In this document: one piece after another, positions 3-45,132 of the stretch
Position numbering within the stretch: the stretch's first letter is position 1
How the letters are laid out: every line of letters starts with the position of its first letter
Assembly: GCA_025362295.1 (NCBI GenBank)
Contig: JANYGX010000009.1
Location: 62,001-126,000, forward strand
Direction: 5' to 3'
Source: Sphingomonadales bacterium
GTDB lineage: Bacteria > Pseudomonadota > Alphaproteobacteria > Sphingomonadales > Sphingomonadaceae
DNA length: 64,000 nt
The notes under the pieces: model-generated
Told to the model about the DNA's origin: nothing
Seen by the model: only the letters and a program-made list of their open reading frames with translations
Databases searched by the model: none
Translations under genes and position numbers: made by a program

Positions 3-2252
3 TTATTTTTGGCCAGCATGGTCGCGCTCATCAGCTTTTCCGCAAATGATCCATCGTGGAACACGGCCTCAGCGGGGCCGACATCAAATTGGCTGGGCGC
101 CGTGGGGGCATACACCTCAGATGCTTTGTTGCAATGGCTTGGACTTGCGGCTGTGGCGCTGGTGTTGCCGATTGGTGTCTGGGGGTTGCGGTTGATGCGC
201 AACAATGCGCATGAAGAGCAGCCTCTTTTGCCCAGAAATCGTGCGCGACTTGGTTGGCTGGTGCTGGCGATTGTGTTGCTGGCAACCGGGCTTGGCCTGC
301 TGCCGCAAACAGCCCCTTTTGTTGCACCCGTGCTCAGCGGCTGGGGTGGCAGCCTTGGCGGCATCATGCGCAGCATGTTTGCTGGCATATTTGCGCGCGC
401 TGAATGGATGCAATGGCTCTGGACACCAGCGCTGGTGCTATTGCCGGCAGGCTTGGTTGCCTTGCTTTGGGCACTGGCGTTTGAACGACAAAGCTTTGAC
501 GGTGTCGCGCATCTGTTTAAAGCCATGGGACGTGCCGTGCGCCGACGGGTTCAACCGGAGCTGGCTGATGGTGATGATGTTGATGATGACGATGTGCCGG
601 AGCCATTGAAGGGCAGCAACGGCCCCAGACCAAAAGTGCGGCGCGAACCCGGCATGGCAGAACCAAACCCCCGCGTTGTCACAAAAACCGAGAGCACCAA
701 GCGAGGCCAGCGCGAAAGCAAGGAGCGCCAGGGTGCGCTTGCCCTTGGCGATGATTATGTGCTCCCGTCGCTTGATCTCCTCACCATACCACCCAAAGAG
801 CGTGCCAAATCGCTCGACAGTGCCGCGCTTGAAAAAAATGCCCGTTTTCTGGAAACCGTGTTGCAGGATTTTGGTGTCGATGGCCGTATAGTCGAGGTGC
901 GCCCCGGCCCAGTGGTAACCCTCTATGAACTGGAACCCGCTCCTGGCATCAAGGCCTCGCGCATTATTGGCCTTGCTGATGATATTGCGCGCTCGATGAG
1001 TGCAATCTCGGCGCGCGTTGCTGTTATCCCTGGTCGCAATGTGATTGGCATTGAGCTTCCCAACAAAAACCGCGACACGGTGTATCTGCGCGACCTGATG
1101 GCGAGCGACGCGTTTGAGGCGGTGAAGGGCCCGCTGCCGCTGGTGCTTGGAAAAAATATTTCTGGCGAACCCGTCATTGCTGATCTTGCCCCGATGCCGC
1201 ATTTGCTGATTGCCGGTGCCACTGGTGCTGGTAAATCTGTTGGCCTCAATGCTATGATTTTATCGCTGCTCTACCGGCTCACCCCGCGCCAATGCCGTTT
1301 TATCATGATCGATCCAAAAATGCTGGAACTGTCGATTTATGACGGGATCCCGCATCTTTTGGCACCCGTTGTCACAGAGCCAAAAAAAGCCATCGTGGCA
1401 TTGAAGTGGGCCGTGCGGGAAATGGATGAACGCTACGGCCGCATGTCAAAACTCGCTGTGCGCAACATTGCCCAGTTCAACGACCGCGTGCGGGAAGCCA
1501 AAAACCGTGGCCAGTCACTCTCTCGCAAAGTCCACACCGGCTATGATGATGGCGGCAAGCCGATTTATGAAGAGCAGCTGTTTGACTTTGAAGAATTGCC
1601 ACTGCTGGTGGTGATTGTCGATGAGCTTGCGGATCTGATGATGGTGGCCGGCAAGGAGATTGAATTCCTGATTCAGCGGCTGGCGCAAAAAGCCCGCGCG
1701 GCGGGTATTCACCTGATCCTTGCCACACAGCGCCCATCGGTGGATGTGATCACTGGCGTGATCAAGGCCAATCTGCCAACGCGGGTATCTTTTGCAGTGA
1801 CATCAAAAATCGACAGCCGCACCATTCTCAATGAACAGGGTGCCGAGCAACTGCTGGGGCGAGGCGACATGCTCTACATGCAGGGTGGACGTTTGTTGCA
1901 GCGTGTACACGGGCCACTGGTATCCGAAAGCGAAGTTGAAAAAGTGGCAGACCACTGGCGCGGACAGGGCATGCCGGATTATCTTGATCAGGTGACTGAA
2001 GACCCTGAAGAAGACGGCGCTCGGCTGGGTGATGAGGCTGCTGAAAAGGGGGATGATCTGCTGTCGCGCGCCGTCGAGGTGGTGGCATCTGAACAGAAAG
2101 CCTCAACCAGTTTCATTCAACGGCATTTGCGCATTGGCTATAACAACGCCGCGCGGTTAATGGATCAGATGGAAAAGCTTGGCTATATTTCATCGCCGGA
2201 TCATGTGGGGCGGCGTGAGGTGCTGATTGATGAAGATGGTGGGCGGCGGTGA
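3..2252 (+). CDS. ftsK: DNA translocase FtsK, 5' end cut by window
   Basis: Septum-located DNA pump that clears and aligns chromosome termini at division. The frame is open to the left window edge, so the true start is outside. Numbering from the TTG at 9, hydrophobic segments lie near residues 38-56, 80-100 and 138-155, followed by a charged linker. The motor domain has Walker A GATGAGKS at 403-410 and Walker B VIVDEL around 538. The C-terminal winged helix (about 685-745, with FIQRHLRIGYNNAARLMD) is the KOPS-reading gamma domain. The stop overlaps a possible GTG of the following lolA frame. FtsK-lolA adjacency is common in Alphaproteobacteria. Confidence 0.97.
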   Translation, partial: LFLASMVALISFSANDPSWNTASAGPTSNWLGAVGAYTSDALLQWLGLAAVALVLPIGVWGLRLMRNNAHEEQPLLPRNRARLGWLVLAIVLLATGLGLLPQTAPFVAPVLSGWGGSLGGIMRSMFAGIFARAEWMQWLWTPALVLLPAGLVALLWALAFERQSFDGVAHLFKAMGRAVRRRVQPELADGDDVDDDDVPEPLKGSNGPRPKVRREPGMAEPNPRVVTKTESTKRGQRESKERQGALALGDDYVLPSLDLLTIPPKERAKSLDSAALEKNARFLETVLQDFGVDGRIVEVRPGPVVTLYELEPAPGIKASRIIGLADDIARSMSAISARVAVIPGRNVIGIELPNKNRDTVYLRDLMASDAFEAVKGPLPLVLGKNISGEPVIADLAPMPHLLIAGATGAGKSVGLNAMILSLLYRLTPRQCRFIMIDPKMLELSIYDGIPHLLAPVVTEPKKAIVALKWAVREMDERYGRMSKLAVRNIAQFNDRVREAKNRGQSLSRKVHTGYDDGGKPIYEEQLFDFEELPLLVVIVDELADLMMVAGKEIEFLIQRLAQKARAAGIHLILATQRPSVDVITGVIKANLPTRVSFAVTSKIDSRTILNEQGAEQLLGRGDMLYMQGGRLLQRVHGPLVSESEVEKVADHWRGQGMPDYLDQVTEDPEEDGARLGDEAAEKGDDLLSRAVEVVASEQKASTSFIQRHLRIGYNNAARLMDQMEKLGYISSPDHVGRREVLIDEDGGRR

Positions 2253-2275: not shown

Positions 2276-2391
2276 CCTCACCCCTTGCAGGGGCGGATAT
2301 GCAGACTTAGTGAGCGCTTGATTGGTGCGCTTGGTCGAAGTTGGAGAGTGGTTTGCCGCGTGAAGTGCCCCCCTCTCGCAAGGGGAGAGAG
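2276..2391. repeat. palindromic repeat family A, copy 1 (overlaps lolA 5' end)
   Basis: This copy shares blocks with the elements at 37927-38108 and 41250-41358: a CCTTGC(A/G)GGG start, GCAGACTTAG, a variable hairpin middle, TCGAAGTTGGAGAG, GTGAAG and a CCCTCTC...GAGAG end. It lies between the ftsK stop and the hydrophobic core of the LolA signal peptide. Confidence 0.75.
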
Positions 2392-3055
2392 AACGTTTTT
2401 TATCTTATTATTTTTGTTTCCGACCTTTACCCCTACGCACGCCGCCCCTCTTCCTTCCGTAACCCTCACCCCGTCTCAGCAAGCCACCGACTCCCGCTCG
2501 CTGGACGATGTTATCACTTGGCTTAAAAGTGTGACCACCATGGTGGCGGATTTCAAGCAAACCACCAGCGCTGGCAAAATCAGCCACGGTAAAATGACAC
2601 TGGCGCGGCCCGGCAAGGTGCGGTTTGAATATGAACCAAGCGTGCCAGTACTGGTGGTGGCGGATGGTGGCTCGCTGTATGTGGTTGATTACGGCAATGC
2701 CAGTGTGCAGCGCTGGCCGATCAAGAACTCGCCGCTTTCAGTGCTGCTCGATCCCAAAGCTGACATCAAGCGGGTTGCCAGAGTGGTGGAAACTGGCCCG
2801 GCAGCCATGCCAGGCTACACCACGGTTGAGGCCACCGACCCGAAGCGACCGCAATATGGCACCATCACGCTATATTTTGCCAACACACCGGGCACAGCCG
2901 GCAATGTGACACTGTCCGCTTGGCGGGTGCTGGATGCGCAGGGCAACACAACGACGATACAGCTGGAGAATTCCAGGCTGAATGGCCCGGTTGCCGAGGG
3001 GGCTTTTGCCTATAAAGATCCCCGACACACTCAGCCGGGTGGCAGAACACACTAA
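2360..3055 (+). CDS. lolA: outer-membrane lipoprotein carrier LolA
   Basis: Periplasmic chaperone that carries lipoproteins from LolCDE to the outer membrane. The body matches the LolA fold: VADFKQTTSAGKISHGKMTLARP-type N-terminal strands, the RFEYE segment and KNSPLSVLLDP. The frame is open from a GTG at 2249 overlapping ftsK, but that would place about 45 odd residues before the signal peptide. I chose the GTG at 2360 because it gives a normal signal peptide (basic RGER, then a FFILLFLF core, cut near THA-AP). A GGAGAG lies about 12 nt upstream. Both the ribosome site and the n-region fall inside a family A repeat. The start is the uncertain part; the identity is firm. Confidence 0.88.
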   Translation: MKCPPLARGERTFFILLFLFPTFTPTHAAPLPSVTLTPSQQATDSRSLDDVITWLKSVTTMVADFKQTTSAGKISHGKMTLARPGKVRFEYEPSVPVLVVADGGSLYVVDYGNASVQRWPIKNSPLSVLLDPKADIKRVARVVETGPAAMPGYTTVEATDPKRPQYGTITLYFANTPGTAGNVTLSAWRVLDAQGNTTTIQLENSRLNGPVAEGAFAYKDPRHTQPGGRTH

Positions 3056-15183: not shown

Positions 15184-15593
15184 TCGAAGGCCTTATCAAA
15201 GCAACACTTGCATTGACCGCCCTTGTTGAAACCGAAAATGATCGGCTGTCCACTGAGCGACCGTCCGAGATCGCACCACTGATCAAGGAAAAATCCCGTC
15301 ATGCGCTGGAATATGAACAGCTGGTGCGACCGTTTCGGCAAAACCCGCTTCTCCTGCGCTCCGCCACGGAAGATCAGTTGCACGCCTTGCGCGCGGCCAT
15401 GCAGACTTTCGATACAACGGTTATGCGCAACGGAAAATTGCTGCTGAAACTTAAATCAGCGCGCGAGGCGATGCTGAAAGCCATCGCTGGCGAACTCAAC
15501 CCGCACAACAAGCGGCCAACGGTTTACGGGCCGGGCACGTCGGTTGCAGACCGGCACAGCGCCTCGGCACTGACAGTCAATGCGGTTGTATAG
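15180..15593 (+). CDS. FlgN/FlbY-like flagellar protein
   Basis: A 137-residue, mostly helical protein (ETENDRLSTERPSEIAPLIKEKSR, then a long charged helix to about 105) with the layout of FlgN-type export chaperones. Its place as third gene after flgI and the rod-binding protein is that of Caulobacter flbY. It overlaps the previous gene by 4 nt. Assignment rests on context plus helix pattern, so the exact role is inferred. Its TAG stop abuts a family B repeat. Confidence 0.65.
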   Translation: MIEGLIKATLALTALVETENDRLSTERPSEIAPLIKEKSRHALEYEQLVRPFRQNPLLLRSATEDQLHALRAAMQTFDTTVMRNGKLLLKLKSAREAMLKAIAGELNPHNKRPTVYGPGTSVADRHSASALTVNAVV

Positions 15594-15657
15594 CGAGCCC
15601 CCAATAAAATGAGCATCATTTTATTGTGATAAGGCGAACGATAACAAAGAGCTATAG
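15594..15657 (-). repeat. 64-bp repeat family B, inverted copy
   Basis: Read on the minus strand, this matches the tandem units at 45005-45132: CTATAG, CTTTGTTATCGTTCGCC, a hairpin AATAAAATGA-TGC-TCATTTTATT, and GGGGGCTCG. It occupies the gap between flbY and flgB. A second inverted pair (TATAGTGAAAA at 15653-15663, TTTTCACTATA at about 15683-15693) follows. Confidence 0.8.
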
Positions 15658-15729
15658 TGAAAAAATATGATCATTATGTATGATTTTCACTATATAGACA
15701 ATCTTAAGACTATTCTGGGATATTGATGT

Positions 15730-34495: not shown

Positions 34496-34582
34496 GTCTT
34501 TATCTCTCCCCTTGCGGGAGAGATAGCGTCGCTCGGCAGCGCTTTCTTGCTGCCTCGCAACGCTAAAGTGGAAAGGGGAAAG
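34496..34582. repeat. palindromic repeat family A, partial or variant copy
   Basis: CTCTCCCCTTGCGGGAGAGATAGCG, a TTGCTGCCTCGCAACGC-like middle and AAGGGGAAA fill most of the gap between the pump and adaptor genes. The same GAGAGATA and TTGC(T)TGCC blocks occur in the left half of the 37927-38108 copy. Confidence 0.55.
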
Positions 34583-37926: not shown

Positions 37927-38108
37927 ATCTTCTCTCTTCCCCATTCTTGTAGGTTGGGCGGGAGAGATAACAAAGCTTGGTGGCCCTTGCTTGCCGCCTA
38001 GCGCAGCTGAGAGAGGGACGCTTTTCAGCCGAAAAACCCCTCTCCAACTTCGACTAAGCCATTAAGAATGGCTAAGTCTTCGTATCCTCTCCCGCAAGTG
38101 GAAAGAAT
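37927..38108. repeat. palindromic repeat family A, longest copy
   Basis: Reading the minus strand from the right end, it has CTTGCGGGAGAGGATACGAAG, then GACTTAGCCATT-CTT-AATGGCTTAGTC as a perfect 12-bp hairpin, CGAAGTTGGAGAGGGG, TGAAAAGCG and CCCTCTCTC, followed by a second block ending in ATCTCTCCCGCC. It fills most of the 289-nt gap before the next gene. Confidence 0.75.
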
Positions 38109-41249: not shown

Positions 41250-41358
41250 TATCCTCCCCTCTTGTGGGGTAAGATACGCAGACTTAGCTGTTCTTCACGG
41301 CTTAGCCGAAGTTGGAGAAGGGCCTGCGGGTGAAGAATACCCCTCTCCCAAGTTGTGA
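41250..41358. repeat. palindromic repeat family A, copy before sdhC
   Basis: The blocks CCCCTCTTGTGGGG, GATACGCAGACTTAGC, GGCTTAGCCGAAGTTGGAGA, GGGTGAAGAATA and CCCCTCTCCCAAG match the 2276 and 37927 copies in the same order. It occupies most of the 312-nt gap before sdhC. Confidence 0.75.
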
Positions 41359-41432
41359 CATAAAGCAATTTCCCTTTCCGCGCACTATGTTCTAAAAGCT
41401 GTTCAGAACAACAGAAACGGAACATATAACAT

Positions 41433-44080: not shown

Positions 44081-44461
44081 TTGTTAGCTGTCGCGATTGA
44101 CACACTGCGTTATTCAAAAAAGCTACAAGCCGCCGGTGTGTCGCCACAACAGGCGGATGCGCAGGCCGAGGCTTTGTCCGAAGCTGTGCGCGATGCTATT
44201 GCGACAAAATCCGATGTGAGTGATCTTCGTAACGAATTGAAGCATGATATAGCTGAACTTAGAGCAGAAATGAAGCATGAGATTGCTGAACTAAGAGCAG
44301 AAGTGAAGCATGACATTGCTGAACTAAGAGCAGAAATGAAGCAGGAGATTGCTTTACTGCGAACCGAAATCAAGGATATTCAGGTCACCATGCTCAAATG
44401 GATTATCCCGCTCATGCTGGCACAAGCCGCGGCCGTTGTCTCACTGGTGCACATGCACTGA
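44081..44461 (+). CDS. small coiled-coil membrane protein (DUF1640/CCDC90-like)
   Basis: A 126-residue protein starting at TTG with a strong GGAGG 6 nt upstream. The N-terminal part LRYSKKLQAAGVSPQQADAQ resembles DUF1640 (CCDC90-type) proteins. A long coiled coil (about 48-100) is made of 11-residue repeats of the form IAELRAEMKHE. A C-terminal membrane segment (about 106-124) ends the protein. The function of the bacterial members is not established. It takes the place where sdhB would be expected. Confidence 0.7.
   Translation: MLAVAIDTLRYSKKLQAAGVSPQQADAQAEALSEAVRDAIATKSDVSDLRNELKHDIAELRAEMKHEIAELRAEVKHDIAELRAEMKQEIALLRTEIKDIQVTMLKWIIPLMLAQAAAVVSLVHMH
44252..44350 (+). repeat. 33-nt tandem repeat inside coiled-coil gene
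   Basis: Three near-identical 33-nt units begin at 44252, 44285 and 44318 (GCTGAACT-AGAGCAGAA...), and a diverged fourth begins at 44351. Each encodes an 11-residue coiled-coil turn. Near-identity at DNA level suggests recent expansion. Confidence 0.85.
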
Positions 44462-44985: not shown

Positions 44986-45004
44986 ATTGATTATATGATT
45001 TTCA

Positions 45005-45132
45005 CTATAGGTCTTTGTTATCGTTCGCCTTGTCCCGATAAAATGATGCTCATTTTATTGGGGGCTCGCTATAGGTCTTTGTTATCGTTCGCCTTATCCC
45101 GATAAAATGATGCTCATTTTATCGGGGGCTCG
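45005..45132 (+). repeat. 64-bp repeat family B, two tandem units
   Basis: Units 45005-45068 and 45069-45132 differ at two positions. Each has CTATAGGTCTTTGTTATCG, TTCGCCTT, then a hairpin CCCGATAAAATGA-TGC-TCATTTTAT(T/C)GGG and GGCTCG. They fill most of the gap between convergent AHSA1-like and nusB genes. A third, inverted unit is at 15594-15657. Confidence 0.9.

Follow-up and report, generated by a model that had tools for sequence, protein, structure and literature searches.

A palindromic repeat between ftsK and lolA as the probable start region of lolA in a sphingomonad

We found that in a Sphingomonadales genome a MITE-like palindromic repeat, lying behind ftsK and ahead of the native lolA sequence, now appears to carry the beginning of lolA. 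In the reading that we favor, with somewhat more confidence than doubt, lolA begins at a GTG codon within the repeat (GTG2360), and both the SD that it uses and the n-region of the signal peptide are repeat sequence. Specifically, translation would begin inside the repeat by way of its own SD-like GGAGAG, placing the charged segment MKCPPLARGER ahead of the native hydrophobic core; the native lolA start would have disappeared when the repeat inserted or later, and the precursor starting at GTG2360 would be exported. The DNA analyzed, termed the window, is a stretch of 64,000 nucleotides (C2:62001-126000) of a 37-contig draft genome of 2.59 Mb, and positions given without a contig are those of the window.

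A palindromic repeat family member follows ftsK

The features of the ftsK–lolA region and the remaining copies of the family in the window are as follows.

9..2252, + strand: ftsK, the upstream gene (Pfam FtsK_SpoIIIE, FtsK_alpha, FtsK_gamma, FtsK_4TM)
2249..2251, + strand: GTG that could serve as an alternative LolA start and overlaps the stop of ftsK (GTGA); from the sequence, SD −6.5 kcal/mol
2276..2393, + strand: palindromic repeat element, shortened toward its right end (BLAST to other copies, covariance model)
2277..2288, + strand: left terminal inverted-repeat arm, 12 nt, pairing with 2378-2389 (92% complementary)
2343..2351, + strand: SD-like GGAGAGTGG inside the repeat, the putative SD of GTG2360 (−10.0 kcal/mol duplex with the 16S tail)
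2360..2362, + strand: GTG within the repeat, the most probable start codon of LolA (in frame, strong SD, 28-residue signal peptide)
2360..2392, + strand: n-region MKCPPLARGER, repeat-encoded (translation)
2360..3055, + strand: lolA (Pfam LolA PF03548, E 1.6e-23, profile positions 2-164 of 165)
2378..2389, + strand: right terminal inverted-repeat arm, which is also an outward-facing SD-like GGGGAGAG (arm pairing)
2393..2443, + strand: native lolA sequence TFFILLFLFPTFTPTHA, comprising the hydrophobic core and the putative cleavage region (translation)
34500..34576, − strand: short family copy (40.2 bits, covariance model)
37930..38106, − strand: full-length intergenic copy of the same family as the lolA repeat (156.5 bits, covariance model)
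41253..41367, + strand: intergenic family copy (67.6 bits, covariance model)

After the ftsK stop (TGA, 2250-2252) come 23 nt of nonrepeat sequence, the repeat and then the LolA hydrophobic core. The lolA gene is intact, with a nearly full-length domain, and LolA has a single match in its own genome; its nearest relatives by LolA are Sphingomonadaceae and other Sphingomonadales. The initial annotation had described a repeat of a family at 2276-2391; BLAST and covariance-model searches bore this out and showed that it is shared genome-wide. The covariance model placed 2276-2393 in the family with 86 bits (E = 1.3e-29 in the window), a score that is partly by construction because the lolA copy is among the 10 copies from which the model was built. 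BLAST with the lolA copy, however, already matched a copy on contig C15 with E = 6e-17, and further copies also matched; the C15 copy, used as query, reached additional copies. Across the 2.59-Mb genome the covariance model identified about 27 nonredundant places, the weakest of which, at 16-18 bits, are uncertain. Four of the copies it detected lie in the window.

The family members are about 118-177 bp in size, multicopy and mostly intergenic. Ten aligned copies match well, with terminal inverted repeats CTCTCCCCTTGC... on the left and ...GCAAGGGGAGAG on the right and a common core, GATACGCAGACTTAG...TTAGTCGAAGTTGGAGAGGGG; in the lolA copy, the segment that leads from the inner CCCCTCTC to the right terminal repeat is missing. 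Related elements were detected in 26 of 60 relatives at E ≤ 0.01. At E ≤ 1e-6, 12 of 142 genomes sampled from the class had matches, the genome itself being one of those counted. Matches in distant genomes are weaker and may be similar palindromes rather than homologs. Rfam contains no family for the element, and no description of the sphingomonad repeat was found in the part of the literature covered, which is weak evidence. The fold of the lolA copy alone was no better than that of shuffled sequence (z −0.77), so none of our claims rests on RNA structure of the repeat; covariation across the copies by RNAalifold was negligible (0.06 kcal/mol). The heptamer TTTTTAT, present at 2258-2264 and 2397-2403, was considered as a target-site duplication and rejected. 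Removal of the element plus one heptamer takes out 139 nt, which shifts the LolA frame and restores no gene start, and the duplication was therefore taken as chance.

The window also holds repeats of other kinds. These include a 64-bp direct repeat in tandem (45002-45129, 95% identical), of which 15589-15663, 29 kb away, is a 95% complementary copy, and 33-bp tandem repeats (44201-44365) in a probable coiled-coil coding region.

Candidate starts and the signal peptide of LolA

A stop just before position 2249 marks the upstream limit of the open LolA frame. The usual in-frame starts in this interval are GTG2249 and TTG2264 before the repeat and TTG2285, TTG2318, GTG2348 and GTG2360 inside it; the next, TTG2414, is within the hydrophobic core. 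Between the end of the repeat (2391-2393) and the signal-peptide core, neither an ATG nor any other usual start occurs in the LolA frame. With all canonical starts thus placed, the LolA precursor includes repeat-encoded residues whichever of them is used. That the hydrophobic core begins just past the repeat, as originally noted, was confirmed: MKCPPLARGER ends at 2392 and the core starts at 2396.

Among the candidates, GTG2360 has the strongest SD. The duplex energies, calculated with the genome's own 16S tail as the anti-SD, were −10.0 kcal/mol for GTG2360, −9.3 kcal/mol for TTG2264, −6.5 kcal/mol for GTG2249 and −6.4 kcal/mol for GTG2348, and a value of −10.0 kcal/mol was reached by 0.6% of the 1257 GTG triplets in the window. 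A GTG some 15-18 nt after the inner GGAGA is present in at least four other copies; judged from these copies, the SD and GTG at that position are a feature of the repeat family. The predicted signal peptide from GTG2360, MKCPPLARGERTFFILLFLFPTFTPTHA, is 28 residues long, with an n-region of net charge +2 and a strong core. Its hydropathy and charge fit a Sec signal peptide, and cleavage would fall after THA. Against GTG2360 counts the location of its SD (2343-2351) inside the palindrome, where it is predicted to be mostly paired (probability unpaired 0.12-0.23). GTG2360 had been proposed as the only sensible start, with its SD and the n-region inside the repeat. It emerges as the best candidate and the placement of both elements stands, but "only" does not, as other in-frame starts exist.

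The arrangement in relatives bears on the origin of the start. Where lolA directly follows ftsK, its ATG start lies ~60-110 nt (in a few cases up to ~260 nt) past the ftsK stop, and in none of these relatives does the lolA start overlap ftsK. A contig scan for a sister genome without the repeat yielded only relatives up to ~54% identical in LolA, the genus being represented by this one genome. The spacing of these ATGs fits loss or displacement of a native lolA start.

Family copies in other genes and the weighing of alternative starts

Copies of the family also enter other genes of the genome.

C7:61386-61525: in-frame copy in pdhB (E1 beta with lipoyl domain; gene at L206:1239-2606), Pfam domains intact on both sides
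C7:62765-62907: in-frame copy in pdhC (E2; gene at L180:1236-2537), Pfam domains intact on both sides
C3:199578-199729: copy forming the last residues of CtaB and its stop (SSPLAGEDTKT followed by the stop codon)

The pdhB and pdhC copies are the main support for in-frame use of the repeat in lolA. Both lie in the linker that follows the lipoyl domain. Most relatives have an Ala/Pro-rich or acidic linker here, and by this comparison the repeat replaces the PdhB and PdhC linkers seen there. The lolA, pdhB and pdhC copies are all read in the frame AGA CTT AGN (RLS), and a profile of the three translated copies matched only those three places; the ctaB copy enters in another frame of the repeat. 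By manual count, among 10 other copies that lie in neither pdhB nor pdhC, 4 have an RLS frame free of stops from end to end. We considered an open frame as proof that the whole repeat is translated and rejected it, as several copies in intergenic DNA likewise lack stops in this frame; openness is a property of the family and does not by itself prove translation.

Two further observations concern these loci. The ctaB gene is flanked by two copies (C3:199578-200780; L172, L174), the upstream one ending ~8 nt before the ctaB ATG with GGGGAGAGAGGA. The pyruvate dehydrogenase linkers of other Sphingomonadales (L266, L263, L282, L303 and L305) contain peptides, such as RPEPVEG...RASTGSARTE in L266 and CCCTCACCCCAACCCTCTCCCGCGAGGGGAGAGGG in L282, that resemble translated palindromic repeats of other kinds. 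These linkers, to judge from such peptides, may be a common refuge for palindromic repeats.

In-frame use of the repeat could also take another form at lolA. Translation would then start at GTG2249, in coupling with the stop of ftsK, and the repeat, inserted in frame between MRDFLLAS and the rest of the signal peptide, would be wholly translated. This would give a signal peptide of ~65 residues with a long charged n-region, like translated Rickettsia elements. The frame is indeed stop-free from 2249 through the whole repeat, PdhB and PdhC translate the whole repeat in the same frame relative to AGACTT, the FLLAS on one side of the repeat and the TFFILLFLF on the other could be the two parts of a single hydrophobic segment, and overlap with an upstream stop is a common arrangement for coupled starts. 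However, the SD of GTG2249 is the weaker one, relatives with adjacent ftsK and lolA offer no parallel for the overlap, open RLS frames are frequent among the copies of the family and chance readily produces a GTGA where a gene ends in TGA. We consider this reading unlikely, although it is the most serious of the alternatives. The original interpretation is supported in part. An intergenic repeat may have replaced the original start: the ATG spacing in relatives fits this, but an ancestral GTG2249 with an in-frame insertion would also account for the locus. The broader claim, that the repeat supplies the start and/or the n-region, is better founded, as it is supported under every canonical start and by in-frame use elsewhere in the genome.

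A native start just past the repeat, now the noncanonical ACG2393, with the outward end of the repeat, GGGGAGAGAG, as ribosome site, is improbable. This end lies 1-2 nt upstream and has an SD energy of −7.2 kcal/mol, and repeat ends seem to play this part at several other genes, about eight other copies having an end 2-16 nt ahead of a predicted gene start; but ACG is very inefficient as a bacterial start, and the resulting signal peptide, MFFILLFLFPTFTPTHA, would be without positive charge. That a normal ATG in fact exists and is hidden by a mistake of assembly or sequencing at the palindrome seems very improbable indeed. Palindromes are error-prone and the assembly is a draft, but the reading frame is undamaged to the left and right of the copy, no contig end is located there and the sequence is that of a coherent family member. 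Initiation at GTG2360 within the repeat stays our preferred reading.

The proximity of repeat ends to gene starts was also seen as a plain count. In eight copies, an end with the SD-like GGGGAGAG or similar is 2-16 nt upstream of a predicted gene start (C28:106678, C3:200624, C21:3622, C28:20249, C3:195635, C19:62156, C1:63347 and C30:18758). These SD-like ends offer a possible, simple explanation for the tolerance of insertions beside start codons. A bolder proposal, doubtful and offered tentatively, is that the family acts as a portable translation start, with an internal SD and GTG and outward SD-like ends, that took over initiation of several conserved genes, including lolA. If that were true, the entire lolA start region would now be repeat sequence.

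Relation to known elements and implications

Rickettsia palindromic elements (RPE; Ogata et al. 2000) are up to ~150 bp long and are found both intergenically and in frame within conserved protein genes (PMC2229807, PMC10969869). The sphingomonad repeat is likewise a multicopy palindrome, in frame in the pdhB, pdhC and lolA frames, and both hosts are alphaproteobacteria. However, its host is not a member of the Rickettsiales, its copies are mostly intergenic, with only three in-frame copies and one C-terminal copy found, and the likeness is by description of kind, with no sequence homology claimed. In Yersinia, the RU-2/YPAL element, a MITE, partly makes the signal peptide of YPO1552 (Delihas 2007, PMC2759123). 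YPO1552 is an uncharacterized putative exported protein, whereas lolA is a conserved single-copy gene, for which the repeat probably also supplies the start codon and SD. With MITEs (reviewed in PMC10969869) the repeat shares small size, multiple copies, terminal inverted repeats and the absence of a transposase gene; the likeness rests on ends, size and copy number, making the repeat mobile-looking only, and inspection of the flanks of the copies by eye revealed no consistent target-site duplication.

In-frame repeats and a repeat-made signal peptide are therefore already known, from Rickettsia and YPO1552, respectively, and the lolA case belongs to that kind. It is set apart by the gene, which is conserved, single-copy and of the cell envelope, and by the probable origin of the start codon and the SD in the repeat. 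The locus provides a concrete case, outside the Rickettsiales, of a conserved cell-envelope gene whose coding start includes a repeat element, and the same family is also in frame in two central metabolic genes. It further means that the annotation of gene starts near such repeats in sphingomonads is unreliable.
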